From a virus, in the IMG/VR virus record IMGVR_UViG_3300025313_001364, positions 1 through 32,789 of that record: a DNA stretch of 32,789 nt; one strand, written 5' to 3'. Below the pieces are notes generated by a model. That model had not been told where the DNA came from and searched no databases. It saw only the letters and a program-made list of their open reading frames with translations. A program made the position numbers and the translations under genes. This document shows, piece by piece, positions 7,183-29,767 of the stretch (positions are counted from its first letter, which is position 1; each line of letters starts with the position of its first letter).

Positions 7183-10100
7183 TTACCTGGCGCCAGCCAG
7201 GAACGCCTCGCGCCCCAGCTGTCGCGCTATTACATCACGCATCCGACGCTCGATGGCGGCCGCATTGTCCTCGGGTGAGCCAGCAAAGCTCGAATACCGC
7301 ATGTCCGCGACGACGGAGACCGTGCTCGTCGACCGCTGGTCCGGCTGGCTGAGCTGGATCAGCGGGACGCTCGTGGGCATCGTCCAGCCATGCGCGGGCA
7401 CGATGCCGCTCGCGCGCAGAATCTCGGCGTAGGCGCGCGGGATGATGGCCTCGCCCTCATGGATCATCGCCAGCTGGTCGCGTGGCACGTACGGCGTGCC
7501 GATGGCGTAGCCCGTGACGCCGGCCTGATGCAGGAGGTCAGCCCGCAGGAAGGCGGACATCCTCGCGAAGTCGGCGTAGGTGACGACTCCGCCACCGGGG
7601 AGAGTGAGGGAGGTCGCCTGGCCAGTCATGCCGACCTTGTTGGCCAGTTTGACCCACTGCGCATCCAGGGTGTCCGCCGTGGCGGCTGCCGTGGCGGCTC
7701 CCTGTGCTGCCTTGAGGGCCGTAGCACGATCATCAGCGGACATCGCGTTCCACTGCTCCCAGGTCAGCGCGGAGTTCGGAGCGAGCGAACGAAACAGTGC
7801 GAAGTCGGCGTCGGACTGGGAGCCACCGGTCATGACAGCCGTAGCGCCCCCTCCGCCCGTGCCCGCCGGAACCACTTTGATCTGGGACGCCAGTTCCTGG
7901 AGCCGCTGTATGGAGGTCGCCGTCGAGATGAGTCCGTTCTGAAGATCCGTCAGGATGCGGGTGACTGCCTCAGCGATTGATGGAGCGATAGCGTTCACGC
8001 CATCGAGGACTGCCGTCAGTCCCGATTGCACCAGGAGTCCGACTTCGGTAGCGATGTTCGCCCCGGTGAGCCGGAAGGTATCCACGATGACCTTGAGTTC
8101 ATCCGCCAGGAGGACTGTCTTGGTCTTGGCATCGTAGATGCCTCCATCAAGAACGGCGCCGACGTCGCGCATGACCTCCTCGAAGGCCGCGATGGCGTCG
8201 GGCGACTTCTCGTCGACAGCGCGCGCGAGGGCGTCCATGAAGTCTCGGCCGAGGGCGCTGGCGTCTTCGGGGGGCATATCCTCGCGGAGCTGCTCTACGA
8301 TGTCAGCCGCGTTCTCGGACACCGTGGCGAGCGCGTTCTTCCCGCCGTCTTTGAGGGCCTTGTCCAGAGTGTCCATGAAGCGCGCGCCGGCCTTGCCGAA
8401 CTCGAGCTCCGCAGCCTTCTGAGCCTCTCCCTCGGCGATAGCGCCAGCTATGCCTCGCATGAGGTTGTCGCCAGTCAGTTTGCCGGCGGCCTCGATCTTG
8501 TCCTGGTTCGCCTGAATCGCGCCGGTAACGGCCGAGAGCGCTTCGAGGGCGGCCTGCTGGGCCTCCGGAGTACGTTCGGTGAGGGCGCGAGCAAAGGCCT
8601 CCATGAGATTCGAGCCCAACGCTTCGGCGTTGGGAATCTCATCTTCTCGGAGCTGGTCGAGCAGATCATCGATGGCGCGTGCGGCATTCTCGCCTGCGCG
8701 GGGGCTGTTGGTTCTGATGGCCTCGCCCAGGGCATCGGCCGCCTTGGCGCCCGTCTCTCCGAACTGCTTGACCAGCCCTTCGAGCTCAGGTGCGAGAGCC
8801 TCGCGGAAAGCATCGATGGCGCTTTGGGCTGAGTCCTTGAGTGCTTTGCCGGCGCCACCTCCGGCGCCACCACCACCGAGATTCACGGTCCGCGTCGGAG
8901 TGGTAGGGCCGGTCGGGGCAGCGCCCGCTACCGGTCCTGTTATCAGATCCCACCAGGCAGCGCCCGGCTGAGCAGCGATGATATCGAAGAAATCGGGGCC
9001 ATGGCCCGGCAGTTGAGGTAGCACCGGCATCTGCGGCATATGGGACAGGTCGAGTGCCGCCCCCGAGAGCCCGACCAGGGATGCCTGTATCTGATTCGCG
9101 AAGCTGATGACCTGCTGCCCGAGAGCCTGCATCCTCGCAAGGAGGCTCGGCGTCTGGTTCGAGATTCCCATCTCGATCCCCTGCACGATGGCCTCGCCCA
9201 CGGGGATCATGCTTAGCGCGGGACTGCTGACGCCGAGAACACGTCCCGGCAGGTCCTTGAGGTCCTCTAGCCGATCCTCGAACCAGTCCGTGAAATTGTC
9301 CCAAGCTCCCGCGATGCCGTCCTTGATGCCATCAACGATGGCCTCCCCGATTCCCGTGAACCAGTCGTAGACGTCCCCCGGGAACGCGATGGCCCAGTCA
9401 AATATGCTTTGGGCAAAGTCGCCGACAGCTTGCAGGGCGTCATCGAGCGCTTCCGCCACGGATTCCGCCGCATCCCAGACGGCGGCGCCAAAATCGCCCA
9501 CTGCGCGACCAGCATCCTCCACTGCGCCGACAGCACTGGCAACCGCTCTCTCCGTGGCCCAGAATGCCGCCTTCAGGTCATCCCAATGTCGAATGATCTC
9601 GATGGTGGCAGGGATCATGCCGAAGCTGACGACACCCGCCAGAATTTCCAGCCCCAGCTTGAACTGGTCGGCGTGCTCGCGGACGAAGTTGATGGCATCG
9701 CCCATCCTGTGGAAGGCCTCGACTGCCCCACCTGCCAGGGCCTCCAGAATGGTGGCCGTCGTGTCAAACCACTCGTATCTCTCCCGGAGTTCGTCCCATT
9801 TCAGGATGAGGTAGGTGATGCCCGTCGTGATGGCCACGGTTGCCAGCAAGGCTGCCGTGAACGGGTTCACGAGCGCGGCGGCGAGCGCGGCGGCTGTGTA
9901 GGCAATCGTGGCCGCGGTGACGATCCCGATGGCAATCGCGAAAGCCTGCACGAGATCCGGATCGAGGGAGCCGTGCAACTCCCCGGTTGCTTCGACCACT
10001 GGCCCCAATACCTCAGCCATGGCGAGGAAAGCCGGCCGCCACGTCTCGCTGAGGTAGTTGATGGCGTTCGGCAACTCGTCGGCGAGGAAATCGGCCAATG

Positions 10101-11250
10101 CTGTGAGCGCCGGCGCGAGGACGCTCGTGAACTGAATCCCGAGCGTCTCGATGGTTCCCGTCAGCCGTTCCCAGGCGCCCGCGAGATTGTCGGTGCGCTG
10201 GCGAGCGATCTCGGCCGCGTCCGAATTCTTCATGGCGTCGGACATCGAGACGAACGCGTCTTGTCCCATCTCCATGATGCCGATGGCCGTACGCATCGCG
10301 TCTCGGCCAAAGATGGTCTGGAGAGCCTGAGCACGTTGCTCGTCGGAAAGTCCCGTGAAAGCCGTCTTGAGGATGCCCGCAATCTGGGAGAGCGGCTTCA
10401 TCTGGCCCTGAGCATCGAAGAACGCGAGCGAGCCTTCTTTGGTTCGGAGGCCGAGGCCTTCCATGGCATCTTTCGCGGCGTCCGTGTTCGGGATGAGCGT
10501 GTTCAGAAACTGCTTGAAGGACGTGCCAGCGTCGGATCCCGACTGAAAGAACTTGGCGGTCCCCGCGATGGACGTCGAGAAGTCAGCAAAGCTAATCCCC
10601 GCCGCCGCAGCAGCGCCACCGCCTTGCGCAATCGCCTGCGACATGTCGTCGACGTCGAACCGCGAGACGTTGGCTGCCCCAGCGAGACGGTTGACATACT
10701 CCGTCAGGTCTGATGTCTTCGCTCCCCAGACCGCCATCGACGTAGAGACGGTGTCCGCAGCCTGAGCGAGATTGGTGCCACCAGCCGCCGCGAGGTTCGC
10801 GGCCGCATCGGCCGCCCCGATCATGATGTCCTCGGCGCTCAAGCCCGCCTGAGAGAGGATGACCATCGCGCCCGAGACCTCGCGGGCCGAAAACATCGTG
10901 TCCGACCCGATGCGAAGTGCTGTCTCCCCCAGGCCGTCGAGTTGATCCTTTGAGGCGCCAGAGACGGCCGCTACCGCGGAGAGATTCTTTTCGTAGGTGG
11001 CGAAGGCCCCCACGCTGCCGGAGAGGGCCGCCTTGATTCCACCAATTGCGAGTTGAGCGGCGCCGAATCCGAGAGCCGTGCTAGCGATCTGTCTGCCGAA
11101 GGATGTGAATCCACCACCAGCCGCCGCGGCCTGCTGCCCTGTCGCAGCAGTCGCCTGCTGCATGCGCTTGAGGTCGTTGAGATAGCTGTTGAGTCCTTCG
11201 ACGACGGCCTGGACGCCAGCCTTCTCCAGGGGCACGGAAACCTCCGGCAC
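7183..11250 (-). CDS. Tail tape measure protein (TP901-type core)
   Basis: This 1355-residue protein sets tail length and is threaded inside the tail tube. The N-terminal third matches the TP901 tape measure core: TYEKNLSAVAAVSGAS, then GSDTMFSAREVSGAMVILSQ and TVSTSMAVWG. A long hydrophobic block follows at about 430-490 (FAIAIGIVTAATIAYTAAAL), the usual membrane-active segment. Further on come amphipathic helices, a Gly/Pro linker and, at roughly 820-1060, two diverged copies of a 90-residue helical repeat (compare GSNLMEAFARALTERTPEA with GRDFMDALARAVDEKSPDA). At about 0.15 nm per residue the tail would be near 200 nm. The start at GTG 11250 has a poor ribosome site. A second GTG at 11235 has GGAGG five bases upstream and may be the true start. 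Confidence 0.95.
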   Translation of the reverse strand: MPEVSVPLEKAGVQAVVEGLNSYLNDLKRMQQATAATGQQAAAAGGGFTSFGRQIASTALGFGAAQLAIGGIKAALSGSVGAFATYEKNLSAVAAVSGASKDQLDGLGETALRIGSDTMFSAREVSGAMVILSQAGLSAEDIMIGAADAAANLAAAGGTNLAQAADTVSTSMAVWGAKTSDLTEYVNRLAGAANVSRFDVDDMSQAIAQGGGAAAAAGISFADFSTSIAGTAKFFQSGSDAGTSFKQFLNTLIPNTDAAKDAMEGLGLRTKEGSLAFFDAQGQMKPLSQIAGILKTAFTGLSDEQRAQALQTIFGRDAMRTAIGIMEMGQDAFVSMSDAMKNSDAAEIARQRTDNLAGAWERLTGTIETLGIQFTSVLAPALTALADFLADELPNAINYLSETWRPAFLAMAEVLGPVVEATGELHGSLDPDLVQAFAIAIGIVTAATIAYTAAALAAALVNPFTAALLATVAITTGITYLILKWDELRERYEWFDTTATILEALAGGAVEAFHRMGDAINFVREHADQFKLGLEILAGVVSFGMIPATIEIIRHWDDLKAAFWATERAVASAVGAVEDAGRAVGDFGAAVWDAAESVAEALDDALQAVGDFAQSIFDWAIAFPGDVYDWFTGIGEAIVDGIKDGIAGAWDNFTDWFEDRLEDLKDLPGRVLGVSSPALSMIPVGEAIVQGIEMGISNQTPSLLARMQALGQQVISFANQIQASLVGLSGAALDLSHMPQMPVLPQLPGHGPDFFDIIAAQPGAAWWDLITGPVAGAAPTGPTTPTRTVNLGGGGAGGGAGKALKDSAQSAIDAFREALAPELEGLVKQFGETGAKAADALGEAIRTNSPRAGENAARAIDDLLDQLREDEIPNAEALGSNLMEAFARALTERTPEAQQAALEALSAVTGAIQANQDKIEAAGKLTGDNLMRGIAGAIAEGEAQKAAELEFGKAGARFMDTLDKALKDGGKNALATVSENAADIVEQLREDMPPEDASALGRDFMDALARAVDEKSPDAIAAFEEVMRDVGAVLDGGIYDAKTKTVLLADELKVIVDTFRLTGANIATEVGLLVQSGLTAVLDGVNAIAPSIAEAVTRILTDLQNGLISTATSIQRLQELASQIKVVPAGTGGGGATAVMTGGSQSDADFALFRSLAPNSALTWEQWNAMSADDRATALKAAQGAATAAATADTLDAQWVKLANKVGMTGQATSLTLPGGGVVTYADFARMSAFLRADLLHQAGVTGYAIGTPYVPRDQLAMIHEGEAIIPRAYAEILRASGIVPAHGWTMPTSVPLIQLSQPDQRSTSTVSVVADMRYSSFAGSPEDNAAAIERRMRDVIARQLGREAFLAGAR

Positions 11251-13166: not shown

Positions 13167-14684
13167 TCAAGCGGCCTTGATCAAGCGGCCATCTGAACCG
13201 TCGACGGCAAGCCCACCCCAGAGGCTCACGTTCTCGACGCCGCGCGCCGTCGCTGCGACCACGGCATTGAGCTGCCGGGACGTGGGCCAGGTGACGGCTT
13301 GCTCTGGCAGCCGATACCACGAGTAGCCGCCGTCGATTGTCCGGTAGGCATGGCCGCGGAGGTTTCCGGTGTCGTTCCAGATCAAGTAGCCGACTTCCCG
13401 CGTGGCGAAGCAGATATCGGCGACGCTGCCAGTCCCGGAGCCCTGAAAGGTCTTTGCGTCCCAGTTGTCGCCGCCATCAATCGTGTAGTAGACGTTCCCG
13501 TCCGCGGCGCCGATCCACCAGATCTGATCGGTGACCATCCAGACCGTATTGAGAACGGTAGCTGCGATGGGTCCGGTGACCGCTGCCCAGGTCGAGCCGC
13601 CGTTCGTCGTTACGAGGACGGCATTGGCGTTCCCGACGGCGACGACATTGTCGCGGTCGACAGCATGGATCGCATTGAGGTCCTGCGCCGTGACGCTGCC
13701 AGCCTCCTGAACCGTCACGCCCTGCGTGGCGTCCGTGAGCAGGTAGATGTAGCCGCCGTCCCCGACGATGTAGGTGCGATCCGCACCAAGCGAGACGAGA
13801 TCGTTGGGAGGGCCCGAACCGACGTATCCCGTCGTGACCTCGGTCCAGCCGCCGAGGCCGGCGATGAGGTCCGCGGTCCGCAGGTAGTGGTGACTGATGG
13901 AGGCGTTGGAGACGACCACCAAATAAGGCCCGACGCAAGACATCGCTGACGGCGCCTCGGCGAGCCCGAGCGATGTGATGGGTGACGTCGCCCAGGTTGC
14001 GCCCCCATCCGTCGTGTAAACCACCTTGGCGGGGAGGCCGGGCGAACCCGAGGAATCGGAGACGAGTGCGAAAAGATGCTGGGCGCCATCGGAGGCGGGT
14101 CCGCAGCCACCGCAGCTGATGCTGTCGCAGATCGCGACGTCGATCACCTCATCGGTGACCTGCGTGTCTGCCTGGATTGCCGGCAGGACGGGCTTGATCT
14201 CGTATGCCGTCCGCCCCGTGACGGCGAGGTTCTCGGGAATGATGGCGCGCTGTGAGGAATCGAGAGCGCCGACTTCGCCTGTGCTGTAGGTCGTGACCAC
14301 GCCCTGGCTGATGACCAGCACCTTGCCATCGGACCAGCCAGAGTTATGGTCTCGCGGGTCCTTGCAGCTCCCAAAGTGGAACATCGGGGTGATCTCGCAG
14401 CGCCGGCGCGCAAGCGCGAACATGTCGCTGTAGGCCAGCGGGTAGCGGAACTCGAGCGGGATCGAGGGAAGTCCCTCTTGGCCCTGGATGATGTCGGTGA
14501 CGTCGAATTTGTCGTACTCGGTCTCGCTGGGGGAGTAGACCGGTGTCAGGTCTCCGAGGTCCCAGGTGAGGGCACCTCCGCGAGCCTGACCTTTGTAGCT
14601 GGGAGCGTTCGTGGGCCCGGCGACTCCATCGATAACCCAGAGCCGGGAGAAAGTCGTCTTGGCGATCTTCTGGTTAGCGACCAA
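13167..14684 (-). CDS. Major tail (tube) protein fused to Asp-box repeat domain
   Basis: The 505-residue product starts at TTG 14684, supported by GGAGG seven bases upstream and by the lack of another start nearby. Residues 1-185 (MVANQKIAKTTFSRLWVID, then ALTWDLGDLTPVY and IPLEFRYPLAYSDMF) fit a tail tube domain, consistent with the position before the tail chaperones and tape measure. Residues 200-505 are a repeat domain with four Asp-box motifs: TTDGGATW (224-231), TTNGGSTW (359-366), TIDGGDNW (401-408) and TIDGGYSW (449-456). Such repeats occur in sialidase-type and YCF48-like propellers. No sialidase catalytic set is seen. A CGGCG cluster (191-195) lies at the join. The added domain would decorate the outside of the tail, possibly binding sugar. 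Confidence 0.8.
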   Translation of the reverse strand: MVANQKIAKTTFSRLWVIDGVAGPTNAPSYKGQARGGALTWDLGDLTPVYSPSETEYDKFDVTDIIQGQEGLPSIPLEFRYPLAYSDMFALARRRCEITPMFHFGSCKDPRDHNSGWSDGKVLVISQGVVTTYSTGEVGALDSSQRAIIPENLAVTGRTAYEIKPVLPAIQADTQVTDEVIDVAICDSISCGGCGPASDGAQHLFALVSDSSGSPGLPAKVVYTTDGGATWATSPITSLGLAEAPSAMSCVGPYLVVVSNASISHHYLRTADLIAGLGGWTEVTTGYVGSGPPNDLVSLGADRTYIVGDGGYIYLLTDATQGVTVQEAGSVTAQDLNAIHAVDRDNVVAVGNANAVLVTTNGGSTWAAVTGPIAATVLNTVWMVTDQIWWIGAADGNVYYTIDGGDNWDAKTFQGSGTGSVADICFATREVGYLIWNDTGNLRGHAYRTIDGGYSWYRLPEQAVTWPTSRQLNAVVAATARGVENVSLWGGLAVDGSDGRLIKAA

Positions 14685-14739
14685 CGGGGAGCCTCCGACA
14701 TGGAGATCACCCCCCGGTTTCAGGCTGGAGTGTAGAGGC

Positions 14740-14994
14740 TCAGGCCGCTGGCGTCACGTGGGCGAGGAAAACTCGCGCTTGCGGCCAGCCGTGCCGACTC
14801 ATGCCAGTGTACCTGAAGAGCGAGAATCGGCCCGAGCGCGCGGCTCCATGCCACCAGAGCCAAACTCCATCCCGCAACGCGAGCAGATGACGATCACGGT
14901 ATGATCTCCTCGGATCCGTTAGAACACGCCGCGCCGTATCCAGTCGGCTCCCCCTGTGGTCCGGCGGTGATGGGGGACGTAAGCCATAGACCAT
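14740..14994 (-). CDS. Small Arg/Trp-rich hypothetical protein in connector block
   Basis: The 84-residue product starts at ATG 14994 with GAGG seven bases upstream, nine bases after the preceding stop. It is rich in Arg, Trp and His (DRHLLALRDGVWLWWHGAAR) and has little sign of membrane segments. The sequence DGVWLWWHG followed by FSLFRYTG looks like a small beta-hairpin. The family is not recognised. Its position between the connector genes and the tail tube gene is where head-tail joining and tail terminator proteins lie, and it may be one of these. The 55 bases between its end and the tail tube start hold only the tail gene ribosome site. Confidence 0.6.
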   Translation of the reverse strand: MVYGLRPPSPPDHRGSRLDTARRVLTDPRRSYRDRHLLALRDGVWLWWHGAARSGRFSLFRYTGMSRHGWPQARVFLAHVTPAA

Positions 14995-15003
14995 AACGGA
15001 TCC

Positions 15004-15309
15004 TCATGGGGGGTTTCCGTCGGTGCTGGCCAGCGCGAGGATGCGTTGCGCGTCCACCCGGAAAGCAGCCAGGACGGCATCTCTCACATCTCCGATGTGG
15101 CGCTCGAGGTCCTGTTGGGTGATGAGCCCACGATGCCAGAGCTGGTGATTAAGCCGAATTTCAGCGTCGAGCGGTAGCCCCAGCGCCTCCAGTCGAGGCG
15201 GCCCGAGGAGGATGCCATGGGGAGCCTCCCGGTCCGGCGCATCCATGGGGATGATGGACCGAAAGCGCCGGCCGAGCTCGTCTGTCCAGTCGACGGTGCG
15301 CGTGTTCAT
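15004..15309 (-). CDS. Conserved phage protein of the connector block, unknown function
   Basis: The 101-residue product starts at ATG 15309 and overlaps the preceding gene by four bases (ATGA). The N-terminus (TVDWTDELGRRFRSIIP), the central GILLGPPRLEALGLPLDAE and the following NHQLWHRGL resemble a family of small phage proteins that recurs beside head-tail genes, with no assigned function that I know of. The second half is a single long helix (LERHIGDVRDAVLAAFRVDA). No membrane segment or catalytic motif is seen. Coupling to the Acb2-like gene upstream suggests co-expression with it, late in infection. Confidence 0.7.
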   Translation of the reverse strand: MNTRTVDWTDELGRRFRSIIPMDAPDREAPHGILLGPPRLEALGLPLDAEIRLNHQLWHRGLITQQDLERHIGDVRDAVLAAFRVDAQRILALASTDGNPP

Positions 15310-15533
15310 GCGGGCGCACCGTCTGGTTCATTGATGGCGATCGCCGCGTTTGCCCACATGGTGGCCTGCTGCAGCGCGCGAATGGCGAGCGTCTGTTCCG
15401 CGGATTCTGGTGTGTTGATCTCTATCAGGCGCGCGAAGGCCAGGGCCCCCTCTCGCAGATGCTGATACCGCGTCGCCTGGTAGGGCGACGGCGGATGATA
15501 CGTAAAAATGCGAACAAGATCCAAATAAGGCAC
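15306..15533 (-). CDS. Acb2/Tad1-hairpin-like protein, candidate cyclic-nucleotide sponge (anti-CBASS/anti-Thoeris)
   Basis: The 75-residue product starts at GTG 15533 with AAGGGGGG about four bases upstream. It has the features I associate with the Acb2/Tad1 hairpin family of phage proteins: an N-terminal FTYHPP motif (10-15), an RYQHLREGALAFARLI helix, a TPES turn (41-44) and a second helix ending ATMWANAAIAINE (57-69). Known members bind cyclic oligonucleotides and block CBASS or Thoeris signalling. This copy keeps the two-helix layout and the strongly conserved MWANAAIA block. Binding residues cannot be checked by eye. Placement inside the structural operon would make the protein late in infection. 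Function for this copy is inferred from family resemblance alone. Confidence 0.7.
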   Translation of the reverse strand: MPYLDLVRIFTYHPPSPYQATRYQHLREGALAFARLIEINTPESAEQTLAIRALQQATMWANAAIAINEPDGAPA

Positions 15534-15542
15534 GTTCCCCCC

Positions 15543-16802
15543 TTATGGCATCACTGCCGAGCGCACGATTGCTGTCTCAGGGTCCCTCACGCGGCGCCAG
15601 GCGGCAATGGCACCGCGCCGCGTGCCAAACGGGTTATCCAGGTCCTGAGCCGAGACATTGTAGGCCGAGAACTCCTCACCCCCAGAGCGGAAGGCGAGAT
15701 CCGTCTGCCACCGGTTCATGCCCGCTGCACAGACGCAGCCCGGGCGATCGAGCTTCGCGGCCGCGAAGCGCGCGATGACGCGTTCCCAGTCGCGGTCCAT
15801 CTCAATGGTCGGATGCTGGCGCTTCTGATCCTGCCAGCCGGCGCGGTAATAGAGCCGAGCGACGTCCGGCATACGCCCGACGATCCACTCGGCCCGGTCG
15901 AAATCCTCATCCGTAGCGTTCCAGTCTCCGGGAGCATACGAGAGCACACCCAGCGCTCGATCTCGCATGAGGAGGCAGCCGGTCTGCGTCTCGTAGGAGC
16001 ACTGCACGCAACTGCCGCTTTCGGAGCAGCTGCAGCCACCTGCCGGCTCCCACAGGAACGACACCTGAGTCTGCGGGTCGTTGTAGATGCGGTAGACGTC
16101 GACCTCAGCGAGGAAACTTGCGTCCACCGAGGCGTCCTGGGCCTCCCAGCCGAGCGCCTCCTGAAGATCCTCCAGCACCGCGAGCTCGCGCCGGAACGTG
16201 ATCGTGGAGACGCCCGACGCGATCACCACGTGGATCGGCCGGATCTCCCATTCGGGCGCGCCGTCTTTGCCGGGATAGAACGCATGTACCTCCGCCGCAT
16301 CGACCACGAGCGAGCCCGAGGCTACGGTCACGGTGCCGGTCTCATCGTAGCTGTCGCCGTCTTCATCCGACCAGGTGATCGCACTGCCCTCCTCAAGCAC
16401 TGTCGCAGCCTTGATGCCACCGGTGAGGATGTGGCCCCAGCGTGCTTTCACGATGTTGTGGAGGCCACGCACATCGAAGGACGGGCGCATTACAGCTTCG
16501 GGGCGGAAATACCGCTCGATGTGGGCCCATTCGTCGAACTCCCAGGTCGGGAGCAGGCGATAGCCGATGTAGCGCTCGAGATCGCCTTCGGCTTCGGCGA
16601 TGGCCTCGGCGACGTCCTCGCGGGAGACCGCATCCGATGCCTGCCATGAGTGCTGAGCCCAGGCCTGGCCGCAGCTGACATTCTGGGTGTTCGGGAGCCC
16701 ACTTGAGCCGTCGAGCTGCAGGCCGGCGCCATGAAGCGGATTGACGCCGACGAGCTGAAACCATCGCCAGAGCGGGAGTTTGGTCGGGGTCGATGCTCTC
16801 AT
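15543..16802 (-). CDS. Head-tail connector / adaptor protein
   Basis: The 419-residue product starts at ATG 16802. The N-terminal part (LPLWRWFQLVGVNPLHG, then SREDVAEAIAEAEGDLERYI followed by GYRLLPTW) looks like the helical core of phage connector proteins that bind under the portal, and VNPLH is a recurring start motif of that group. The rest is beta-rich. It contains a Cys-dense stretch at about 254-276 (GGCSCSESGSCVQCSYE, then TGC) and further Cys at GCVCAAG, so a metal site or disulfides are likely. At 419 residues it is longer than simple adaptors and probably carries an extra domain. The gene is the first structural gene after the glycan island. Confidence 0.7.
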   Translation of the reverse strand: MRASTPTKLPLWRWFQLVGVNPLHGAGLQLDGSSGLPNTQNVSCGQAWAQHSWQASDAVSREDVAEAIAEAEGDLERYIGYRLLPTWEFDEWAHIERYFRPEAVMRPSFDVRGLHNIVKARWGHILTGGIKAATVLEEGSAITWSDEDGDSYDETGTVTVASGSLVVDAAEVHAFYPGKDGAPEWEIRPIHVVIASGVSTITFRRELAVLEDLQEALGWEAQDASVDASFLAEVDVYRIYNDPQTQVSFLWEPAGGCSCSESGSCVQCSYETQTGCLLMRDRALGVLSYAPGDWNATDEDFDRAEWIVGRMPDVARLYYRAGWQDQKRQHPTIEMDRDWERVIARFAAAKLDRPGCVCAAGMNRWQTDLAFRSGGEEFSAYNVSAQDLDNPFGTRRGAIAAWRRVRDPETAIVRSAVMP

Positions 16803-16815
16803 GGCGCCAGTGTAC

Positions 16816-17106
16816 TCAAATGCTCCGCGATAGGCGCTCCAGCATCAGCGCCAGCCCCGCGACGGCCGCGACCGCGAGAGGCCAGGTCGGCGCATCGAGT
16901 CGCAGCCACGCATACGCTCCCGCAGCCGTCCAGACCGACGTACAGCCGACGCAGTGCAACACACTCGCCAGGGGCAGAGGATTTCCGTCGCGCCAGAGCG
17001 CGGCTCGCAACCGCCGAATGGCCTCGAACGGCCCATCGTCCTCGACCAAGAGCACGGCGACCCTCCACGCGGCCAGGCCGGCAAGCGCGAGGGATAGCCA
17101 TGTCAC
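16816..17106 (-). CDS. DUF1360-like small membrane protein
   Basis: The 96-residue product starts at ATG 17106 and overlaps the triple glycosyltransferase gene by four bases (ATGA). It shows the DUF1360 pattern: an N-terminal helix with AWRVAVLLVEDDGPFE, then an LR pair (RRLRAALW), then HCVGCTSVWTAAGAYA with a Cys-x2-Cys pair at the start of the next membrane segment. A last hydrophobic helix (PLAVAAVAGLALML) follows. DUF1360 proteins are known from sporulating bacteria and many phages without a settled function. It is the last gene of the overlapping glycan chain and could hold the glycosyltransferases at the membrane, which is speculation. Confidence 0.75.
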   Translation of the reverse strand: MTWLSLALAGLAAWRVAVLLVEDDGPFEAIRRLRAALWRDGNPLPLASVLHCVGCTSVWTAAGAYAWLRLDAPTWPLAVAAVAGLALMLERLSRSI

Positions 17107-19829
17107 GGCTGACGAGTAACCGACGCGAGCTCGGGCGCGGAGCGAGCCGGCATCGAGGCCACCTGCTCCACCGTGTATCGCGACATGCCCCGCAGGTTCA
17201 GCAGCCAGTCGACGTCATCGTTCTTGACGTAGGCCCAGCTGCCCTTCTTGAAGTAGTACCGCGTGCTCGTCTTCGGGCTCCGGTAGCTGTGCTCCGAGGT
17301 CAGCGGGCCATCATAGAGGATGGCCGTGAGTCCGTTCGGCGAACTCCCCGCAGGCGCCGCCTGAACGCGTGATTCTGGCGATGGGAGCGAGGTCGACGCT
17401 GCCCCCTTGCGACATCCTGAGCAGGCCATGAATCGTTCGCCCCCTTTCCAGAGTCGGTCCCATTGTCGCAGGATAGCAGCCTTCGAATCCTCGAACGCCG
17501 CCATGTTTTCCTCGCGCCGGCGGCCCGTGTACTTCCGATAGGTCCAGAGCGGCAGCGGAATGCGCGTCGAGCAGTACCCGCGATCCGCGAGCGCGATGTG
17601 AAACGCCCAATCCTCCCAGGCCGGCAACTGCTCGTCATAACCGCCGACGGTGCGCCAGGCGTCGACGGGGATCAGCTGCGTGACGGCGCCGATCTGGCCG
17701 ATGCGGACGAGCAATTCCGGATCCCAGTCCGGATTCCGGAACACCTGCCACTGCCCGGGGCCGCTGGGATCCTCCCAGAAGTCGGAGTACGCCACGATGC
17801 CCGGCTGTTTGCGGATGACCTCGAACATGAACTCCAGGCACTCCGGCTCCAGCATGTCGTCCGCATCGAGGGGCAGGTAGTAGCGCGCCCGAGCAGCGGC
17901 CACGCCGACGTTGCGAGCATGGGCGACGCCCGTCCTGCCCTCGGTCTCGATGATTCTCACCCAGGACGGCAACGGAGCGAGGGATTTGCCCGAATCATTG
18001 ACTACAATGATCTCCCAGCCCCGGAACGTCTGGGCCTCTACAGAGTCGACAGCGTCGGTGACGAGCCGTTCGTGGCCCGGGCCGACAGGGATGACCACGG
18101 AGAGCGCCGGAGGATCGAGAGATGGTACGGGGGGTATTGACCTTGTCCCCGCTCCTGCCGGCGCTCTCCGCGAGTCTCCGCCGTGCCAGGGGAACCAACG
18201 GTGCCACTGCACGGGAGCCTCGAGACGGGACATGGAGGATTCGCGGTTGCGATAGATGAGAGTGTCCGCTGTCGTGACCATACGCGCGCGGAATCCGTAC
18301 GACGCCAGCCGGCACCAGAGGTCCGCATCCTCGGCGGTGCGGCAGCGGCCCCGATAGCCGCCAGTGAGTCGCCACGCCTCCCGCGTGAACATTGAGCAGT
18401 AGGGCATGAGATTCTGCCCGCTGAGTTGCCGTTCCCAGACGAACTGCTCGGGCCAGCCGCTGTTGCCAGCCGGCAGATCGCGCCGGTAGACGACGGGAGT
18501 CCGACCGTCTTCCTCGGTGAAGCGCACGTTGCCGTAGACGGCATGCACCGGTTCGAACCCGTCCGGCCGGCCGATCTTCGGGAGCACGCGTTCGTCGAGG
18601 GCCGCGGCCAGGTGCGCGAGCGTGTGGGGCGTGAGTTGATCGTCAGCATCGAGGGGGATGATGTATCGCCCGCGCGCGGCCGCGATGCCTGTGTTGCGCG
18701 CGCCCGCGAGGTACTGGTTCGTCTCGTTGTGAATGACCCGAAACCGTTTGTCCTTCGCCGCGTAGGCGTCGGCGATGGCGCCGCAGTCGTCTGGCGAGTC
18801 GTCGTCGACGACGACACATTCCCAGTCGGGGTCGGTCTGAACCTCCACGGAGTCGAGAGCATCGGGCAGGTACTGGGCGAGCTTATAGGCAGTGACGACG
18901 ATGGACGTCCGCGGGCTCGACTCCTCGGCAGCGCGCCGCTCTGCCAGCTGCCGGTAGAGGCCCGCGTACTGCGCAGCGGCGCGCTCCCACGACCACCGCG
19001 CGGCGGTCTCGCGGCAGGCTGCGGCCATCGAATCTCGCTCCACCATCGCCTTCTCAAGGGCTACGGCGAGCGCCGCGTAATCGTGAGGGCGCACGAGGAA
19101 CCCGTCGACGCCGTCGGTCACGATTTCGGCCGCGCCTCCCCAGCGCCAGCCAACGACAGGCACCCCGCAGGCGAGCGCCTGGAGGATGGAGACCCCGAAG
19201 GTCTCGCGCGCCGTCGAGAGATAGGCGCTCGCGCCCTGATGGAGCAATGCGGCTTCGGCGTAGGATTTGTGCCCGACGATCGTCACGTTGGGCGCCGCTC
19301 TCCCGAACGTAGAGACGAACTGCCGTTCGGGTAGGAGCTTGGCCACTTCGTTCATGTGATCCGGATCGCAGACCGGATCCGGACGAGTCTTGTCCCAGAG
19401 GATGTAGGCCGGTGACACCGGCCTGCCCTGCCACTGGCTAGCGTCAATGCCATGCCCGATGACGACGGGATCCCGTGCCGTGTGCCGACGGATGGCGCGC
19501 GCTACCCAGTCCGTGGGCACGGTGACCGCATCTGCGGATGTGATGGCCGCAAGCACCTCGCGGTTCGCATCGTGGCACCAGGACGGCCACTCGAACTCTG
19601 ACCAATAGAGCCCGTGGCAATGCGCCACGAAGAGCTTTCGCGGCCATTTTCGCAGCCACTCTCGCGGCATTGTGATGTGGCAGGCGAGGATGTCGGCGTC
19701 GGCGGGATTGCCCACAAGCTGGATACCCTGGGCGGGCAACGAGTTCTGGAGCCCTTCCACGACCCGACGAACGCCACCCTGGCCATCATCCTGGCCGCGC
19801 GCTTCCGGCCACATGTGAACCCTGATCAT
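17103..19829 (-). CDS. Triple-domain glycosyltransferase (GT4-like plus two GT2-like domains)
   Basis: The 908-residue product starts at ATG 19829. The upstream extension of the frame to 20153 is ignored because it lies in the methyltransferase gene. Residues 1-300 are a GT-B fold of the GT4 type, with RETFGVSILQALACGVPVVG at 208-227. The second Glu of the usual E-x7-E pair is Gln217. Residues 307-535 are a GT-A domain of the GT2 type (VVDDDS, PLDADDQL and TAEDADLW). Residues 575-770 are a second GT2 domain (VVIPVGPG, VVNDSG, PLDADDML and AWEDWAFH). The last 110 residues hold CSGCRKG (803-809) and a small domain with RYYFKKGSWAYVKNDD. It probably adds several sugars in sequence from nucleotide-sugar donors. 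Confidence 0.9.
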   Translation of the reverse strand: MIRVHMWPEARGQDDGQGGVRRVVEGLQNSLPAQGIQLVGNPADADILACHITMPREWLRKWPRKLFVAHCHGLYWSEFEWPSWCHDANREVLAAITSADAVTVPTDWVARAIRRHTARDPVVIGHGIDASQWQGRPVSPAYILWDKTRPDPVCDPDHMNEVAKLLPERQFVSTFGRAAPNVTIVGHKSYAEAALLHQGASAYLSTARETFGVSILQALACGVPVVGWRWGGAAEIVTDGVDGFLVRPHDYAALAVALEKAMVERDSMAAACRETAARWSWERAAAQYAGLYRQLAERRAAEESSPRTSIVVTAYKLAQYLPDALDSVEVQTDPDWECVVVDDDSPDDCGAIADAYAAKDKRFRVIHNETNQYLAGARNTGIAAARGRYIIPLDADDQLTPHTLAHLAAALDERVLPKIGRPDGFEPVHAVYGNVRFTEEDGRTPVVYRRDLPAGNSGWPEQFVWERQLSGQNLMPYCSMFTREAWRLTGGYRGRCRTAEDADLWCRLASYGFRARMVTTADTLIYRNRESSMSRLEAPVQWHRWFPWHGGDSRRAPAGAGTRSIPPVPSLDPPALSVVIPVGPGHERLVTDAVDSVEAQTFRGWEIIVVNDSGKSLAPLPSWVRIIETEGRTGVAHARNVGVAAARARYYLPLDADDMLEPECLEFMFEVIRKQPGIVAYSDFWEDPSGPGQWQVFRNPDWDPELLVRIGQIGAVTQLIPVDAWRTVGGYDEQLPAWEDWAFHIALADRGYCSTRIPLPLWTYRKYTGRRREENMAAFEDSKAAILRQWDRLWKGGERFMACSGCRKGAASTSLPSPESRVQAAPAGSSPNGLTAILYDGPLTSEHSYRSPKTSTRYYFKKGSWAYVKNDDVDWLLNLRGMSRYTVEQVASMPARSAPELASVTRQP

Positions 19830-19903
19830 TCCGCAAGTCTCCAGAGCGCCAAGCCCAGCCCGAGAATGACCACGTAGATGATCAGCAGGTCGATGTACCT
19901 CAC
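19826..19903 (-). CDS. 25-residue single-pass membrane microprotein
   Basis: Between the methyltransferase and the triple glycosyltransferase lies a frame from GTG 19903 to TGA 19826. It overlaps the upstream stop as GTGA and the downstream start as ATGA, the same four-base junctions used elsewhere in the island. GGGAGGGAG sits three to four bases before the GTG. The peptide reads MRYIDLLIIYVVILGLGLAL, then WRLAE. It is one transmembrane helix of about 17 residues with a charged residue at each end, probably tethered in the cytoplasmic membrane. Without it the gene chain would have a 70-base gap here. Function is unknown. Anchoring or regulation of its glycosyltransferase neighbour is inferred from coupling. 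Confidence 0.75.
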   Translation of the reverse strand: MRYIDLLIIYVVILGLGLALWRLAE

Positions 19904-20448
19904 AGGCTCCCTCCCAGATAGGTACCACCCCAGCCCATTCCCCGGCGGGACCATTCCGCAAGCGTCCCGCTTGCGATGAATGGGGCCAGTGCCAAGGCCA
20001 CTCCCGGATAGGCATCGGTGTGATCATGCAACCAGACGGGAGAACGAGCGCGCAGCGACGGCAACCAGAGCTTGAGCTCCATCGCTGTATCGGCTTGCTC
20101 ATGCGAAGTGTCGAGCAGCAGTCCGTCGAAGAGGCAACCGTTCCGGGGCCCATTGGAGGTGTGCGAGCACCAACTTTCCCAGCGATGGGCCCAGCCGCAA
20201 TTCTTGACGGCTTGCTCCGTCCAGTTCAGTGCATCCTGGCTTCGATCCACGCTCATCACGCGCGTGTCATCCGGAAAACGCTCAAGGATGGCGAGCGCTG
20301 TGGTGCCGCTGCCCGCTCCGAGATCTGCCACCCAGCGCGGGCGCTGGGCTCGCCAGTGTGCCTCGAAGAGAGACTGAATCAGGTCGACATCGTCAACAGT
20401 CAGGTACTTGCGGGACCGAGCGAGGTCGCGGGCAGGGGATTGCGTCAT
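19900..20448 (-). CDS. SAM-dependent methyltransferase (class I)
   Basis: The 182-residue product starts at ATG 20448, overlapping the preceding stop by four bases. The frame extension to 20826 is only a shadow of the preceding gene. Motif I is VADLGAGSGTTALAI, followed by VMSVDRSQDAL for the ribose-binding acidic strand. The region FDGLLLDTSHEQADTAMELK, with LPSLRARSPVWLHDHTD after it, resembles methyltransferase_24-type enzymes often found in polysaccharide clusters. It likely methylates a sugar hydroxyl or small metabolite in the glycan pathway. The exact substrate cannot be read from the sequence. Confidence 0.85.
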   Translation of the reverse strand: MTQSPARDLARSRKYLTVDDVDLIQSLFEAHWRAQRPRWVADLGAGSGTTALAILERFPDDTRVMSVDRSQDALNWTEQAVKNCGWAHRWESWCSHTSNGPRNGCLFDGLLLDTSHEQADTAMELKLWLPSLRARSPVWLHDHTDAYPGVALALAPFIASGTLAEWSRRGMGWGGTYLGGSL

Positions 20449-21122
20449 CGTTGATCCGCCCTCGCCTGGATGCTGCCGATGTGCGCGAACAGGTCTCCCA
20501 CCGGCCGCAGGTTGAGGGGCCAGAGCACCCGCTGACGAGCGGCAGGCCGGCCGCACCATTCGCGCTCGGTGCTTCCAGGATCGAGTCCCTCCGTCCATGG
20601 CCCGACAGCCCGCGCCCAGCGCACAGTTTCGAGCCGTGGATGGCCCGCTGCGATGTGATGCTCTGCACTCGTGGGATCGAGATGGAGATAGGTCGCGCCG
20701 TCGATGTTGAGGACCTCGGCGCGGAGTTGGGCGAGAAATCCCAGATAGCCCAACCTTACGCAGCCCCATCCCTCCCGGAGCGGCCGCACGAACTCCTCGG
20801 CGTCGAAAAGTCGGAGACACTCCCAATCGTCCTCAAGCGGCAGGACCCAGGTCGACTGAGGATGGATTTGCTGCATGGCCAGGTTGTAGGAGGCACCGTA
20901 GCCGCGGCGCTCGCTGTTGCTCGTGCGCACCGGCAGTCCGAACGCATCGCTTGCCAGGTGCGCCAGACATTGGCGATACTCGTCGGCGCTCCCGTCATCG
21001 GCGATATGCACGACCAATCGACTGCTCCAGCGGAGGTATTTCGCGAGGGACGATATGGTCCGGGCAGCGTAATCCCAACGGTCATAGGTCAGAACGGCCA
21101 CCCCGAGCGTCTCCTCAGCCAT
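20445..21122 (-). CDS. Glycosyltransferase, GT2-like
   Basis: The 225-residue product starts at ATG 21122 and overlaps the kinase-methyltransferase gene by eight bases. The N-terminus (LGVAVLTYDRWDYAARTISS) matches the first strand and helix of GT-A enzymes. IADDGSADEY follows, and the metal-binding region is LPLEDDWECL, an E-D-D version of the usual D-x-D. The C-terminal part lacks the long extensions of polymerising transferases, so it probably adds a single sugar. It is one of three separate transferase proteins in the island, with five predicted transferase domains in total. Acceptor and donor are unknown. Confidence 0.85.
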   Translation of the reverse strand: MAEETLGVAVLTYDRWDYAARTISSLAKYLRWSSRLVVHIADDGSADEYRQCLAHLASDAFGLPVRTSNSERRGYGASYNLAMQQIHPQSTWVLPLEDDWECLRLFDAEEFVRPLREGWGCVRLGYLGFLAQLRAEVLNIDGATYLHLDPTSAEHHIAAGHPRLETVRWARAVGPWTEGLDPGSTEREWCGRPAARQRVLWPLNLRPVGDLFAHIGSIQARADQR

Positions 21123-22200
21123 GAGCAACGCGCCAGACCGTCCGGCTGGCCCGCCGTCCAACGACGGGAATGGTCACGATGGGCGCAGCCTCGCAGCCCA
21201 AACCATTGAGCCAGGATTGAACGGCCTCATCGCTGGGGAGCCAGGCGGGCCCAGGCCCATCCCCGGCGAGTTGCGTCTCGAAGTACAGGATGCCGCAATC
21301 CTGCGCAATCTCCATCAGCTTCGCCTCAGCAGCTGCTCGCCCGTAGTCGCGCACCATGTAGGCGAACGTCGAGAACAGGAGCACGACGTCGAAGTTGAAA
21401 GTGTCCAGGTCCATGATGTTGGCCTGGTCGAACTTGACGGGCATGTAGCTCCAGAGCTCTCGAGCGATAGCGATGGAGTTCTCCCCGGTGTGGAATCCGC
21501 CCGTATCGATGCCTGAGGCGCGCATGCCCTCGCACGCTGCCGCCGCCACGAAGTCGCCTTGAAAGCACCCGAGATCGCAGAACGTCTTGCCCTTGAGTGG
21601 AAGCGCGAGATCCGTGTGCGCCCCCAGGTCCCGCAAGACGGCCCGCCATCGGCGCGCTACGCGCGGCGTGTCCCCCACCTCTTGACCATCGGCCGGCCAC
21701 TCCGCAATCGTGCGAAAGCAGAGCCCCGAATCCGACCATGGTTGCTTCTGCGGAGCGGGTTCGCCGATGAAGTGTGCCTCCTGGAAGTCGATGAGGTACG
21801 GCCAGTCGCGTTTGAGGATGATATTCGACGAGGTCATATCCCCATGGCGGACGTTCCGGCTACGGAGCTCCCAGAGCAGGCGGATCATGTTGCGGCGAAA
21901 CAGCTCGCCATCGAGGGGATGATGATCGGACCGCCCCAGGTCATTGGACTGGAAGGCGTAGGCTTTGCCCTCGTGCTCACGCACGACCCCTACCCTCGGA
22001 GTCGGAGTCATCCCGGAGCCCGCCATCTCATCCAGAAACCGGATGTCGTTCTGGAGCGCCCGCCGGTTGTGCGCGTCGAGCGCCACCTTTTCGATGATTC
22101 CGCCAGGCAGGCGGTAGACCTCCATGCCGGCGTGGCCGCCGATGAGCGGGTACGCCTGCAGTTGAGCGCGATGCGCCGCGACTGCCACTGCTAGGCTCAT
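21115..22200 (-). CDS. Kinase-methyltransferase fusion, WbdD-like composition
   Basis: The 361-residue product starts at ATG 22200, overlapping the preceding gene by four bases. Residues 20-145 carry a small kinase-like fold with a likely ATP lysine (IIEKVAL, K38), the catalytic RHGDMTSSNIIL (H119, D121, N126) and YLIDF (D138) as the metal-binding Asp. Residues 200-361 are a class I methyltransferase with motif I FCDLGCFQGDFV (208-218), an acidic IDTG after the next strand, and FDVVLLFSTFAYMV. The E. coli O9a enzyme WbdD combines the same two activities, in the opposite domain order, to end a polysaccharide chain with a methylated phosphate. A comparable capping role is a reasonable inference here. 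Confidence 0.8.
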   Translation of the reverse strand: MSLAVAVAAHRAQLQAYPLIGGHAGMEVYRLPGGIIEKVALDAHNRRALQNDIRFLDEMAGSGMTPTPRVGVVREHEGKAYAFQSNDLGRSDHHPLDGELFRRNMIRLLWELRSRNVRHGDMTSSNIILKRDWPYLIDFQEAHFIGEPAPQKQPWSDSGLCFRTIAEWPADGQEVGDTPRVARRWRAVLRDLGAHTDLALPLKGKTFCDLGCFQGDFVAAAACEGMRASGIDTGGFHTGENSIAIARELWSYMPVKFDQANIMDLDTFNFDVVLLFSTFAYMVRDYGRAAAEAKLMEIAQDCGILYFETQLAGDGPGPAWLPSDEAVQSWLNGLGCEAAPIVTIPVVGRRASRTVWRVAHG

Positions 22201-22889
22201 GAATACCTCCCCCACCGCGGCGGCTTCCAATCCCGGGTCAGGATGTTGCGCGTCTCCAAGATGACGCTCTGCCATGGTCCGCGCTGCGCCGTATCCGTGT
22301 CCGGATGCGAGCGGTAGTTGTAGAGCGGAGCGCCGTTCGCGATCGGGCGCAGGGCGCCAACGTCGGGATGCGTCATCAGGATTGAGATGAGTGCGCTGTC
22401 TGGAGCTCCCGATGCCGTCTCGACGGGGAAGCCCCCTGTGCGGTCCCAGAGGTGCTTGTGAACGACGGCCGCGTTGCACGGCACGGTCTGCGTTTCGCCG
22501 CTCTCCATGTAACGCACGCCGTAGTACCAGTACGTGCGTTCCGCTTCCTGCTCGGGGATCTGATGCGCGGACTCCCACCATGCCTCGATGGCCGTGGGCT
22601 CCAGCGTGTCATCTGCACCGAGCATCAGAATCCACGATCTGGAAGCCAGCGCCACGCCGCAATTGAAGGCGGAGGCCACCCCGATATGCCAGGGGGCACG
22701 CCAATAGCGTAGGAGGCTCTCTCGGCGTGGCAGATACTCGGATGGAATCGGAGCCACGTCGTCTACGATGAGAATCTCGTAGGGATGGGTCGTTTGCGCA
22801 GCGACCGAGTCCAGGCATTCCTCGATCCAGCGCTGATGTGCCTCCAATGGACCGAGCGGAATCACGACCGTCATGGGCGCGGTCGTCAT
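22197..22889 (-). CDS. Glycosyltransferase family 2 protein
   Basis: The 230-residue product starts at ATG 22889, overlapping the reductase gene by four bases. It shows a GT2 layout: MTVVIPLGPLEAHQRWIEEC, then ILIVDDVAP for the nucleotide, GVASAFNCGVALASRSWILM, and LGADDTLEP, where the first Asp of the usual LDADD is Gly but the two metal-facing Asp remain. Later come WDRTGGFP and GAPDSALI, which correspond to the acceptor and base region. It is likely a soluble cytoplasmic transferase. Donor and acceptor are unknown. The preceding two genes make or modify a deoxy-sugar, which may be its donor. Confidence 0.85.
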   Translation of the reverse strand: MTTAPMTVVIPLGPLEAHQRWIEECLDSVAAQTTHPYEILIVDDVAPIPSEYLPRRESLLRYWRAPWHIGVASAFNCGVALASRSWILMLGADDTLEPTAIEAWWESAHQIPEQEAERTYWYYGVRYMESGETQTVPCNAAVVHKHLWDRTGGFPVETASGAPDSALISILMTHPDVGALRPIANGAPLYNYRSHPDTDTAQRGPWQSVILETRNILTRDWKPPRWGRYS

Positions 22890-23716
22890 TCGTCGGCTCC
22901 ATCGCGCCGAAGCGCCTCCTCGAGCGACGGCAGCGTCCAAAGCGGCCCGCTGGGCAGAAGCGTGCGGTTGATGCGCGGCTCCGGCAGCAGCCGAATCACG
23001 GAGACCGCCCCATCGTGGCGCGCCAAGGATTGCAGCGCCGCCGCTTTGCAAATGGGGAACTCGGTCGCTAGGTGCACGATCCGTCGGCTGTCTCGCGGCA
23101 CTCCCTCCGCCTGGATAGCCCGGAGCAGCTGCACGGCGACGGCGCGCACGGTCGAGCCCGACCAGTAGGCATGAGTCCAGCCGTCGCCGGCGTAACCGAC
23201 ATCCCGCCACCAGCGCCAAAGCCCATGTCGCGTCGTCACGAAGGACGTTCGCACGATGAGGCCCGCAGGAACCTGCTCCCCGAGCGCCTTCGTCCAGCCG
23301 TAGGGATCGATGGGCGCTAATGGGCTATCGACTCTGTGCCCCGGGCCCGCTCCGAGTCGATCGTTTGGCGCTGATGCGAGCCCGCTTGGCGGCCATATGG
23401 CCCGGGCCCAGGCGTCGGCCCCGACGCCAAACACGCAGTCGGTGGAGATGCCGACATAGCCGGCACCGCACCTTTGGGCTTCAGCGCTAAGGCGAAGGGG
23501 TATCGCCGCATTCGATTCAATCTGCTCGGCGGCGGGAGCACCTGGCAGTCTACCGATGCAGTTGATGACGATGTCATCTGCCCCATATGGGCCCATGCCA
23601 GTCGGCAGCAGCGAGTCAGCCATCAGCAACTCCGAAGGCTCCTCGTCCGCGCGGTCCCAGGCCCAACGAAGCGCCGTGCCGAGCGCCCCACGGTGGCCGA
23701 ACAGATAGATGGTCAT
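22886..23716 (-). CDS. RmlD-like sugar-nucleotide reductase
   Basis: The 276-residue product starts at ATG 23716 and overlaps the dehydratase gene by four bases. It is a short-chain dehydrogenase of the dTDP-4-dehydrorhamnose reductase type. The NAD(P)-binding loop is GHRGALG (7-13), NCIGRLPG closes the nucleotide pocket, STDCVFG (91-97) supplies the catalytic Ser/Thr, and YGWTK (139-143) the Tyr and Lys. It would reduce a 4-keto sugar nucleotide, fitting the dehydratase next to it. Together they could make a 6-deoxy-hexose donor. The glucose activation and epimerisation steps are not in the window, so the host would have to supply these. The precise sugar is not determinable. Confidence 0.85.
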   Translation of the reverse strand: MTIYLFGHRGALGTALRWAWDRADEEPSELLMADSLLPTGMGPYGADDIVINCIGRLPGAPAAEQIESNAAIPLRLSAEAQRCGAGYVGISTDCVFGVGADAWARAIWPPSGLASAPNDRLGAGPGHRVDSPLAPIDPYGWTKALGEQVPAGLIVRTSFVTTRHGLWRWWRDVGYAGDGWTHAYWSGSTVRAVAVQLLRAIQAEGVPRDSRRIVHLATEFPICKAAALQSLARHDGAVSVIRLLPEPRINRTLLPSGPLWTLPSLEEALRRDGADE

Positions 23717-25689: not shown

Positions 25690-25709
25690 GTGTCCCCCCG
25701 TGTAAGCGC

Positions 25710-25764
25710 CGAGCAGCGCCGCTGTCCTCTGGGCGGCGATAGATCGTTTTGTCAGCGCTGCTCG
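25710..25764 (-). repeat. Inverted repeat in leader of glycan island
   Basis: A perfect ten-base inverted repeat, CGAGCAGCGC at 25710-25719 and GCGCTGCTCG at 25755-25764, is separated by 35 bases. It lies upstream of the dehydratase start at 25689. In RNA it would form a stable stem in the 5' leader of the island and could be an operator, attenuator or stabiliser. No promoter with convincing -35 and -10 boxes is seen nearby. Confidence 0.5.
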
Positions 25765-25801
25765 ACGTCGCGCGCACCCTATCACAACCCAGGGGACATA
25801 G

Positions 25802-29001: not shown

Positions 29002-29715
29002 TCAAGGCACGGCGAGGAGGATGGGCTCTCCGCTGGGTACGTTCCAACAGCGGCAATTTACGTGGGCTGCCTCAAACGAGGTAGCCATCACGAACTTTTG
29101 GCCGTCAAGCGCGGCGCAGATCGGGCAGACACGCTGATCCATCGCCGTCCGCCATTCCCAGTAGCGGTAGCCCATGGCCTGAAACGCTACCTGCGCACCA
29201 TGGCCGAGGAGGTTCGTCATCTCGGTGACAGCGATCATTCGCGCTCGCTGTGGGCCGAACAGCTCCTCTATCTGCTCAGCTACCCAGCGGGAGCCTCGCC
29301 CTTCGGCGCGTGCCTGCAGGATGGCCGCGCGAAGGGCATCCCGCCGAGTCGACGTCAGTTGTTGCCACCAGCGATTCGTGTAGGAGCGCGCTGCCCCGAC
29401 GAAAGCCTCCTCAGGATTCACGCCGAACAGTTCCTCCATCGGCGGCAGCACGTAACCTTCATCCCCGAGCGCCTTCATGGCGTCGCTGTCGTTCTGGGCC
29501 AGCCAGGCGCCGAGGAGGATGATGCTCAGGGCCGCCTGAAAGAGCTCCTGCTCGACCTCCATCCGCATATCATCCCAGAGACGATCGTCGTGAACGACAT
29601 CCTCAAGCGCCTTCACCGTGCCGTTCGCGATCCGGAAGGCCCGCCCCTCATCGTGGGTGTCTGCGTAGACCGAATTCCAGATGGCCACCCAGCGCCGGCG
29701 CTTGGGAACCGGCAT
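29002..29715 (-). CDS. Minor head protein (Mu F / SPP1 gp7-like)
   Basis: The 237-residue product starts at ATG 29715. The longer frame to 30006 lies inside the portal gene and is low in protein-like character, so it is not used. The N-terminus (WVAIWNSVYADTHDEGRAFR) resembles a ChaB-like helix pair found at the start of some phage head proteins. The middle is helical. The C-terminus carries the Mu F-type signature: ARMIAVTEMTNLLGHGAQ, WRTAMDQRVCPICAALDGQ and AHVNCRCW, whose Cys and His residues probably hold zinc. Proteins of this group bind the portal and are carried into the prohead, and some take part in DNA ejection. It lies 52 bases after the portal stop. Confidence 0.9.
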   Translation of the reverse strand: MPVPKRRRWVAIWNSVYADTHDEGRAFRIANGTVKALEDVVHDDRLWDDMRMEVEQELFQAALSIILLGAWLAQNDSDAMKALGDEGYVLPPMEELFGVNPEEAFVGAARSYTNRWWQQLTSTRRDALRAAILQARAEGRGSRWVAEQIEELFGPQRARMIAVTEMTNLLGHGAQVAFQAMGYRYWEWRTAMDQRVCPICAALDGQKFVMATSFEAAHVNCRCWNVPSGEPILLAVP

Positions 29716-29767
29716 CCGGCGCACGCGCTCCGGCAAACTTGGATCGGTAGGACCGCTATATGGCGTG

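Follow-up and report, generated by a model that had tools for sequence, protein, structure and literature searches.

A 32,789-nucleotide (nt) stretch of viral DNA (IMG/VR record IMGVR_UViG_3300025313_001364, positions 1 to 32,789; hereafter referred to as the window) carries a gene for a 75-residue protein that is Acb2-like. The best explanation for this gene, which we hold with good confidence from the comparisons below, is a cyclic-nucleotide sponge, because in its product Tyr12 aligns with T4 Tyr8 and PaP2 Tyr11, and Arg27 with PaP2 Lys26. T4 Acb2 has been shown to capture cyclic nucleotides and leave them intact (PMC12657218), and one paper (PMC11722364) takes PaP2 Acb2 to be a hexamer that acts as a sponge for 3′3′-cGAMP. 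The window protein appears to be a newly added member of the known Acb2 family, in which the shifted charged residue at the presumed ligand site seems unusual.

An Acb2-like gene and its family

The gene occupies positions 15306 to 15533 on the minus strand, begins with a GTG start codon and encodes 75 amino acids, which read VPYLDLVRIFTYHPPSPYQATRYQHLREGALAFARLIEINTPESAEQTLAIRALQQATMWANAAIAINEPDGAPA. The initial annotation of the window had named an open reading frame (ORF) at exactly these coordinates, without giving its strand, and the three motifs that it quoted for the protein (FTYHPP, TPES and MWANAAIA) are all found in the translation. The gene, its main features and its neighbours are as follows.

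15306..15533, minus strand: acb2-like gene, with the Acb2/Tad1 hairpin domain at residues 11–66 (PF24729, phrog_1454 and fold)
15531..15545, minus strand: TAA stop codon of the upstream gene, overlapping a purine-rich ribosome-binding-like stretch, TAAGGGGGGAAC-GTG (sequence)
15477..15512, minus strand: codons of residues 8–19 (RIFTYHPPSPYQ), the conserved N-terminal loop motif that includes Tyr12
15453..15455, minus strand: codon of Arg27 (alignment and family conservation)
15378..15401, minus strand: codons of residues 45–52, with Ala45 and Arg52 in place of the common Arg45 and Thr52
15004..15309, minus strand: downstream gene, 101 residues, without a family match, whose start codon overlaps the stop codon of the acb2-like gene
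15543..16802, minus strand: upstream gene, 419 residues, an orphan

The stretch AAGGGGGG, three bases before the GTG codon, overlaps the TAA of the 419-residue upstream gene (which ends at 15543), and the TGA of the acb2-like gene overlaps the ATG of the 101-residue downstream gene (ATGA, 15306–15309). With these coupled overlaps, the existence of family members and profile scores far above chance, 15306–15533 looks like a real gene.

The Pfam profile PF24729 (Acb2_Tad1_hairpin) matched residues 11–66 of the protein over profile positions 1–57 of 58, with an E-value of 3.9e-15 and 56.2 bits (curated cut-off, 27 bits), in line with the earlier expectation of a hit over approximately residues 8–70. 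As a control, the same profile also matches T4 Vs.4 (71.4 bits) and PaP2 p26 (66.1 bits), both of which are Acb2 proteins with solved structures. The corresponding PHROG match was phrog_1454 (E = 4e-16), a family of unknown function. NCBIfam gave no match for either the window protein or T4 Vs.4, and only a meaningless sub-threshold match for PaP2 p26.

The protein had initially been described as Acb2/Tad1-type; the family is correct, but the Tad1 half of the description had to be dropped. We regard the protein as Acb2-like rather than Tad1 because the ten residues preceding the hairpin leave no room for an N-terminal β domain, and no strands that could form the N-terminal antiparallel β-sheet of Tad1 are present in the predicted model. 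Tad1 (7UAV, 8KBB) shares the Pfam domain name and a C-terminal hairpin with a similar RE-x5-T segment, whereas it contains the β domain and comprises about 120–140 residues in total.

The kinship of the window protein to the characterised Acb2 proteins is distant. Whereas T4 and PaP2 Acb2 fall into phrog_717, the window protein falls into phrog_1454, and the cross-matches are weak; a profile of close relatives matched T4 Vs.4 weakly (E = 4.5e-4) and PaP2 Acb2 at a level that is not significant (hhalign, E = 0.091). The best PDB match of this profile was ‘Acb2 homolog 43’ (9PTQ; E = 0.0077, profile positions 26–66), a protein of 76 residues that, unlike the window protein, keeps R45/T52 and lacks the ANAAIA signature, and for which our search found no publication. 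A single-sequence PDB search with the window protein returned nothing below E = 0.69. A PDB query with an approximate consensus, not used as evidence of membership, returned only Tad1 and Acb2 homolog 43 (E about 0.013–0.02).

The short phrog_1454 proteins of Paenibacillus, Brevibacillus, Gordonia and Mycobacterium phages share the stand-alone architecture and the signature of the window protein, although most of those aligned keep R45/T52 (that of Brevibacillus phage Jenst does not). These proteins are often labelled ‘putative phosphomannomutase’ or hypothetical. Two family members deposited as ‘putative phosphomannomutase’ lie at 2992–3198 in a Paenibacillus phage (L022) and at 3977–4192 in a Brevibacillus phage (L023). 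On family proteins of 68–71 residues, the phosphomannomutase label is evidently a misannotation.

Predicted hairpin and presumed ligand site

AlphaFold2, using 16 sequences, placed helices at residues 6–9, 20–40 and 45–68 (mean pLDDT 82.9, pTM 0.69). In this model, a short N-terminal helix precedes two long helices that form a helical hairpin, as the initial annotation had anticipated. Searches with this structure were uninformative, because so small a hairpin looks like many unrelated helical bundles: Foldseek returned no match under E = 1, and in VIA the rows at Z 5–7 were tied with unrelated helical bundles, with Tad1 (7uav) at Z 4.9 among the rows.

In the alignment to the PaP2 and T4 Acb2 sequences, Tyr12 occupies the position of both T4 Tyr8 and PaP2 Tyr11, and Arg27 that of both PaP2 Lys26 and T4 Lys23. 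Lys26 is the basic residue of the PaP2 dinucleotide pocket. Arg27 and Asn62 are identical in all 170 of the 170 distinct domain sequences that constitute our family set, and Tyr12 is kept in 159 of the 170. The Y8A mutation of T4 Acb2 disrupts dinucleotide binding and function, and Phe82 of the same protein stacks on the bound base (PMC12657218). The Phe82 position is taken by Ala66 in the window protein and by Ala88 in PaP2; Phe82 is therefore a peculiarity of T4.

A comparison with these two proteins reveals both shared and divergent features. PaP2 Acb2 (p26; 8H2J, 8IXZ; PHROG 717) likewise matches PF24729 and combines a hairpin with a short N-terminal helix, whereas it is longer (93 residues), has a longer helix–helix loop, carries Arg67 and Thr74 at the positions of Ala45 and Arg52, belongs to another PHROG and lacks a significant pairwise profile match to the window protein. 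T4 Acb2 (Vs.4; 7UQ2; PHROG 717), a proven sponge, also matches PF24729 and shares the MWA..A segment, in addition to its equivalent of Tyr12. However, it has the longer loop, Thr68 and Phe82 in place of Arg52 and Ala66, and a gene near regB, within an accessory region.

As a sponge, the gene product would be a short, stand-alone Acb2-like protein whose hairpins would pack into a hexamer, with Arg27 and the N-terminal FTYHPP loop, including Tyr12, forming the walls of pockets between the protomers. We infer that these pockets would trap the cyclic oligonucleotide alarm signals of CBASS-type defences without breaking them down, and that the killer effector would consequently stay off.

Linked changes at residues 45 and 52

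The window protein has A45/R52 in place of the widespread R45/T52, which forms part of the RE-x5-T segment that is typical of most relatives and present in Tad1 too. Arg45 and Thr52 occur together in 132 of the 170 distinct sequences, are both absent from 33 and are split in 5; in 31 of the 33 sequences without both residues, position 52 is Arg or Lys. The linkage has a naive Fisher P value of 1e-29 over the 170 sequences, is kept after clustering at 60% identity with columns 45 and 52 left out (19, 2, 0, 11; P = 6e-7), and is lost after clustering at 50% identity, at which only 10 clusters are left. Outside these two columns, the window protein stands at 64% to the R/T types and at 64% to the nearest A/R type. 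The sequences without R45/T52 comprise two subtypes, one with Glu46/Trp60, as in the window protein, and the other with Asp46/Thr60. An attempt to demonstrate a repeated, independent origin of the exchange was dropped: a tree from 59 columns, with nine changes on the best tree and one supported pair, is too weak for the independence of the exchanges, and shared ancestry therefore accounts for some part of the linkage.

Position 52 corresponds to T4 Thr68 and PaP2 Thr74, and position 45 to PaP2 Arg67, which is presumably a trinucleotide-binding residue. Since R45/T52 is exchanged and the T68M mutation of T4 Acb2 is reported to lower binding, the ligand preference of the window protein may differ from those of the characterised Acb2 proteins. 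In a refinement of the sponge explanation, rather than an exclusive alternative to it, this preference would have moved: the loss of Arg45 and the gain of Arg52, on the same helix face and two turns on, would rebuild the pocket, and the sponge would then take another cyclic nucleotide, or dinucleotides but not trinucleotides. We put this forward tentatively, as a possibility to which the 45/52 linkage, the effect of T68M at the exchanged position and the alignment of Arg45 with PaP2 Arg67 all point. However, the trinucleotide role of Arg67 is our assumption, shared ancestry lies behind part of the linkage, and position 45 is not an arginine in T4 Vs.4, which is nevertheless a functional sponge. 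The arginine is thus not family-defining, and its loss alone is no argument against a sponge. It is rather doubtful that the A45/R52 members as a whole would constitute a sponge subtype, with an arginine two helical turns along the pocket helix and a ligand specificity that is novel relative to the characterised Acb2 proteins.

The exchange could also be read as a sign of decay, in which the fold was kept and binding was lost, since Arg52 is the equivalent of T4 Thr68, at which a bulkier side chain reduces binding, and some T4-like phages are reported to have lost acb2 function (PMC12657218). We consider decay improbable: the reading frame is intact, the residues of the ligand loop and the invariant residues are preserved, and the type with Arg or Lys at position 52 and no Arg45 recurs in about 30 other distinct sequences, a pattern that does not look like decay in a single phage.

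Genome setting and timing of expression

No promoter-like (0) or terminator-like (0) site was detected within 14600–17300, and the ribosome-binding-like stretch at the upstream stop codon suggests that the acb2-like gene is translated from the operon transcript. With its stop/start overlaps and no promoter-like site of its own, the gene looks like a translationally coupled part of a long minus-strand operon, and its product would therefore probably be synthesised alongside the head and tail proteins. The operon contains, in order, the terminase gene (31816–32712), an HNH gene, the portal gene, a gene for a MuF-like protein (29002–30006) and, further along, the tape-measure gene (7183–11250). 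The acb2-like gene is placed between the head genes (MuF-like, portal and terminase) and the tape-measure gene. The earlier description of the gene as lying inside the connector genes was not confirmed, as neither the 101-residue nor the 419-residue immediate neighbour matched any family in our search. Relatives of the 419-residue ORF were found only in records of the same phage, and the single-sequence fold of its product has a pLDDT of 30.9; a connector role of this upstream gene (15543–16802) is possible.

The same phage is represented by a longer record of 49,069 bases that includes the window (99.98–100% identical DNA); the right-hand extra part of this record encodes, on the same strand, a PD-(D/E)XK nuclease, a Prim-Pol, a UvrD-type helicase and methyltransferases. 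Three records that resembled relatives (L002, L093 and L102) proved to be the same phage as the window (99.98–100% identical DNA where compared); they were rejected and are not counted as independent evidence.

Several further genes were observed in the window. An 8.7-kb sugar cassette (17103–25785, minus strand) is located inside the structural genes, between the putative major capsid gene (25869–27338, which we take for this gene although it has no family match) and the region of the acb2-like gene. It encodes multi-domain glycosyltransferases, an APH-like/methyltransferase protein, an RmlD-like protein and a polysaccharide-synthesis epimerase. The epimerase gene (Polysacc_synt_2; 23713–25785, minus strand) is interrupted by an insert that matches intein-splicing and LAGLIDADG endonuclease domains, and this intein sits in a phage sugar-metabolism gene, not in a replication gene. 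The HNH gene between the terminase and portal genes encodes a free-standing endonuclease (PF13392; 31276–31803, minus strand), and a 505-residue protein from the tail-gene region (13167–14684, minus strand) has BNR/sortilin-type propeller repeats.

The relatives of the acb2-like gene occupy varied positions. In isolates, they directly follow the portal gene in Gordonia phages Schomber and FlyingTortilla, lie between the terminase and portal genes in Streptomyces phage LuckySocke, and are upstream of the terminase gene in Arthrobacter phage Jasmine and Mycobacterium phage Cheetobro; in cyanophage S-2L, the family member is an unannotated ORF (about 3501–3686; L094) in a gap between two tail genes. 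Other relatives are found among replication, nucleotide-metabolism or regulatory genes (Paenibacillus phages Heath and Pahemo, Brevibacillus phage Jenst, Mycobacterium phage 20ES and Gordonia phage Bantam). Among 144 large ORFs flanking the family members in viral contigs (crude ORF calling), terminase large subunits are the commonest recognised families; head maturation proteases and portal, minor head and morphogenesis proteins likewise stand out. This spread over phages of many hosts and varied genome positions is as expected for a portable counter-defence gene. Besides its strong match to the sponge profile, the genome of Gordonia phage Schomber (L021) contains two weak ones (about 2065–2295, E = 4.8e-6; about 4813–5166, E = 2.5e-4), which suggests that several family members may occur in one phage.

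The initial annotation had regarded the late position of the gene as a puzzle of timing, or else as a hint of a second, structural role. The position is not peculiar to this phage and poses no puzzle, because, in the viral relatives, the recognised neighbours are most often terminase, portal and head genes. A virion role is unlikely because the family is found in both structural and replication settings. That the protein is instead a virion or head–tail connector protein sharing the hairpin by chance is very improbable: the gene lies between head and tail genes, is translationally coupled to both neighbours and has relatives that are often near terminase, portal and head genes, but members also reside among replication and nucleotide-metabolism genes, T4 vs.4 is close to regB, one relative adjoins a transcriptional regulator, residues of the ligand loop are among the conserved ones, and our search for a structural protein family matched only phrog_1454, phrog_31113 and, weakly, phrog_717, all of which are of unknown function and none of which has a structural label.

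For a cyclic-nucleotide sponge, the late position fits a report, cited in a review, that Pseudomonas aeruginosa phages without acb2 escape CBASS through mutations in the major capsid protein (PMC10419184): the CBASS trigger may itself be late, and a sponge made late would not be at a disadvantage if late products set CBASS off. Phage genomes commonly encode short phrog_1454 proteins, which are mostly labelled as hypothetical or, wrongly, as phosphomannomutase. Linking phrog_1454 to Acb2 assigns a predicted counter-defence role to proteins of many phages, often encoded beside packaging and head genes, and the coupled change at residues 45 and 52 offers a simple and testable guide to the alarm signal that each type may trap.
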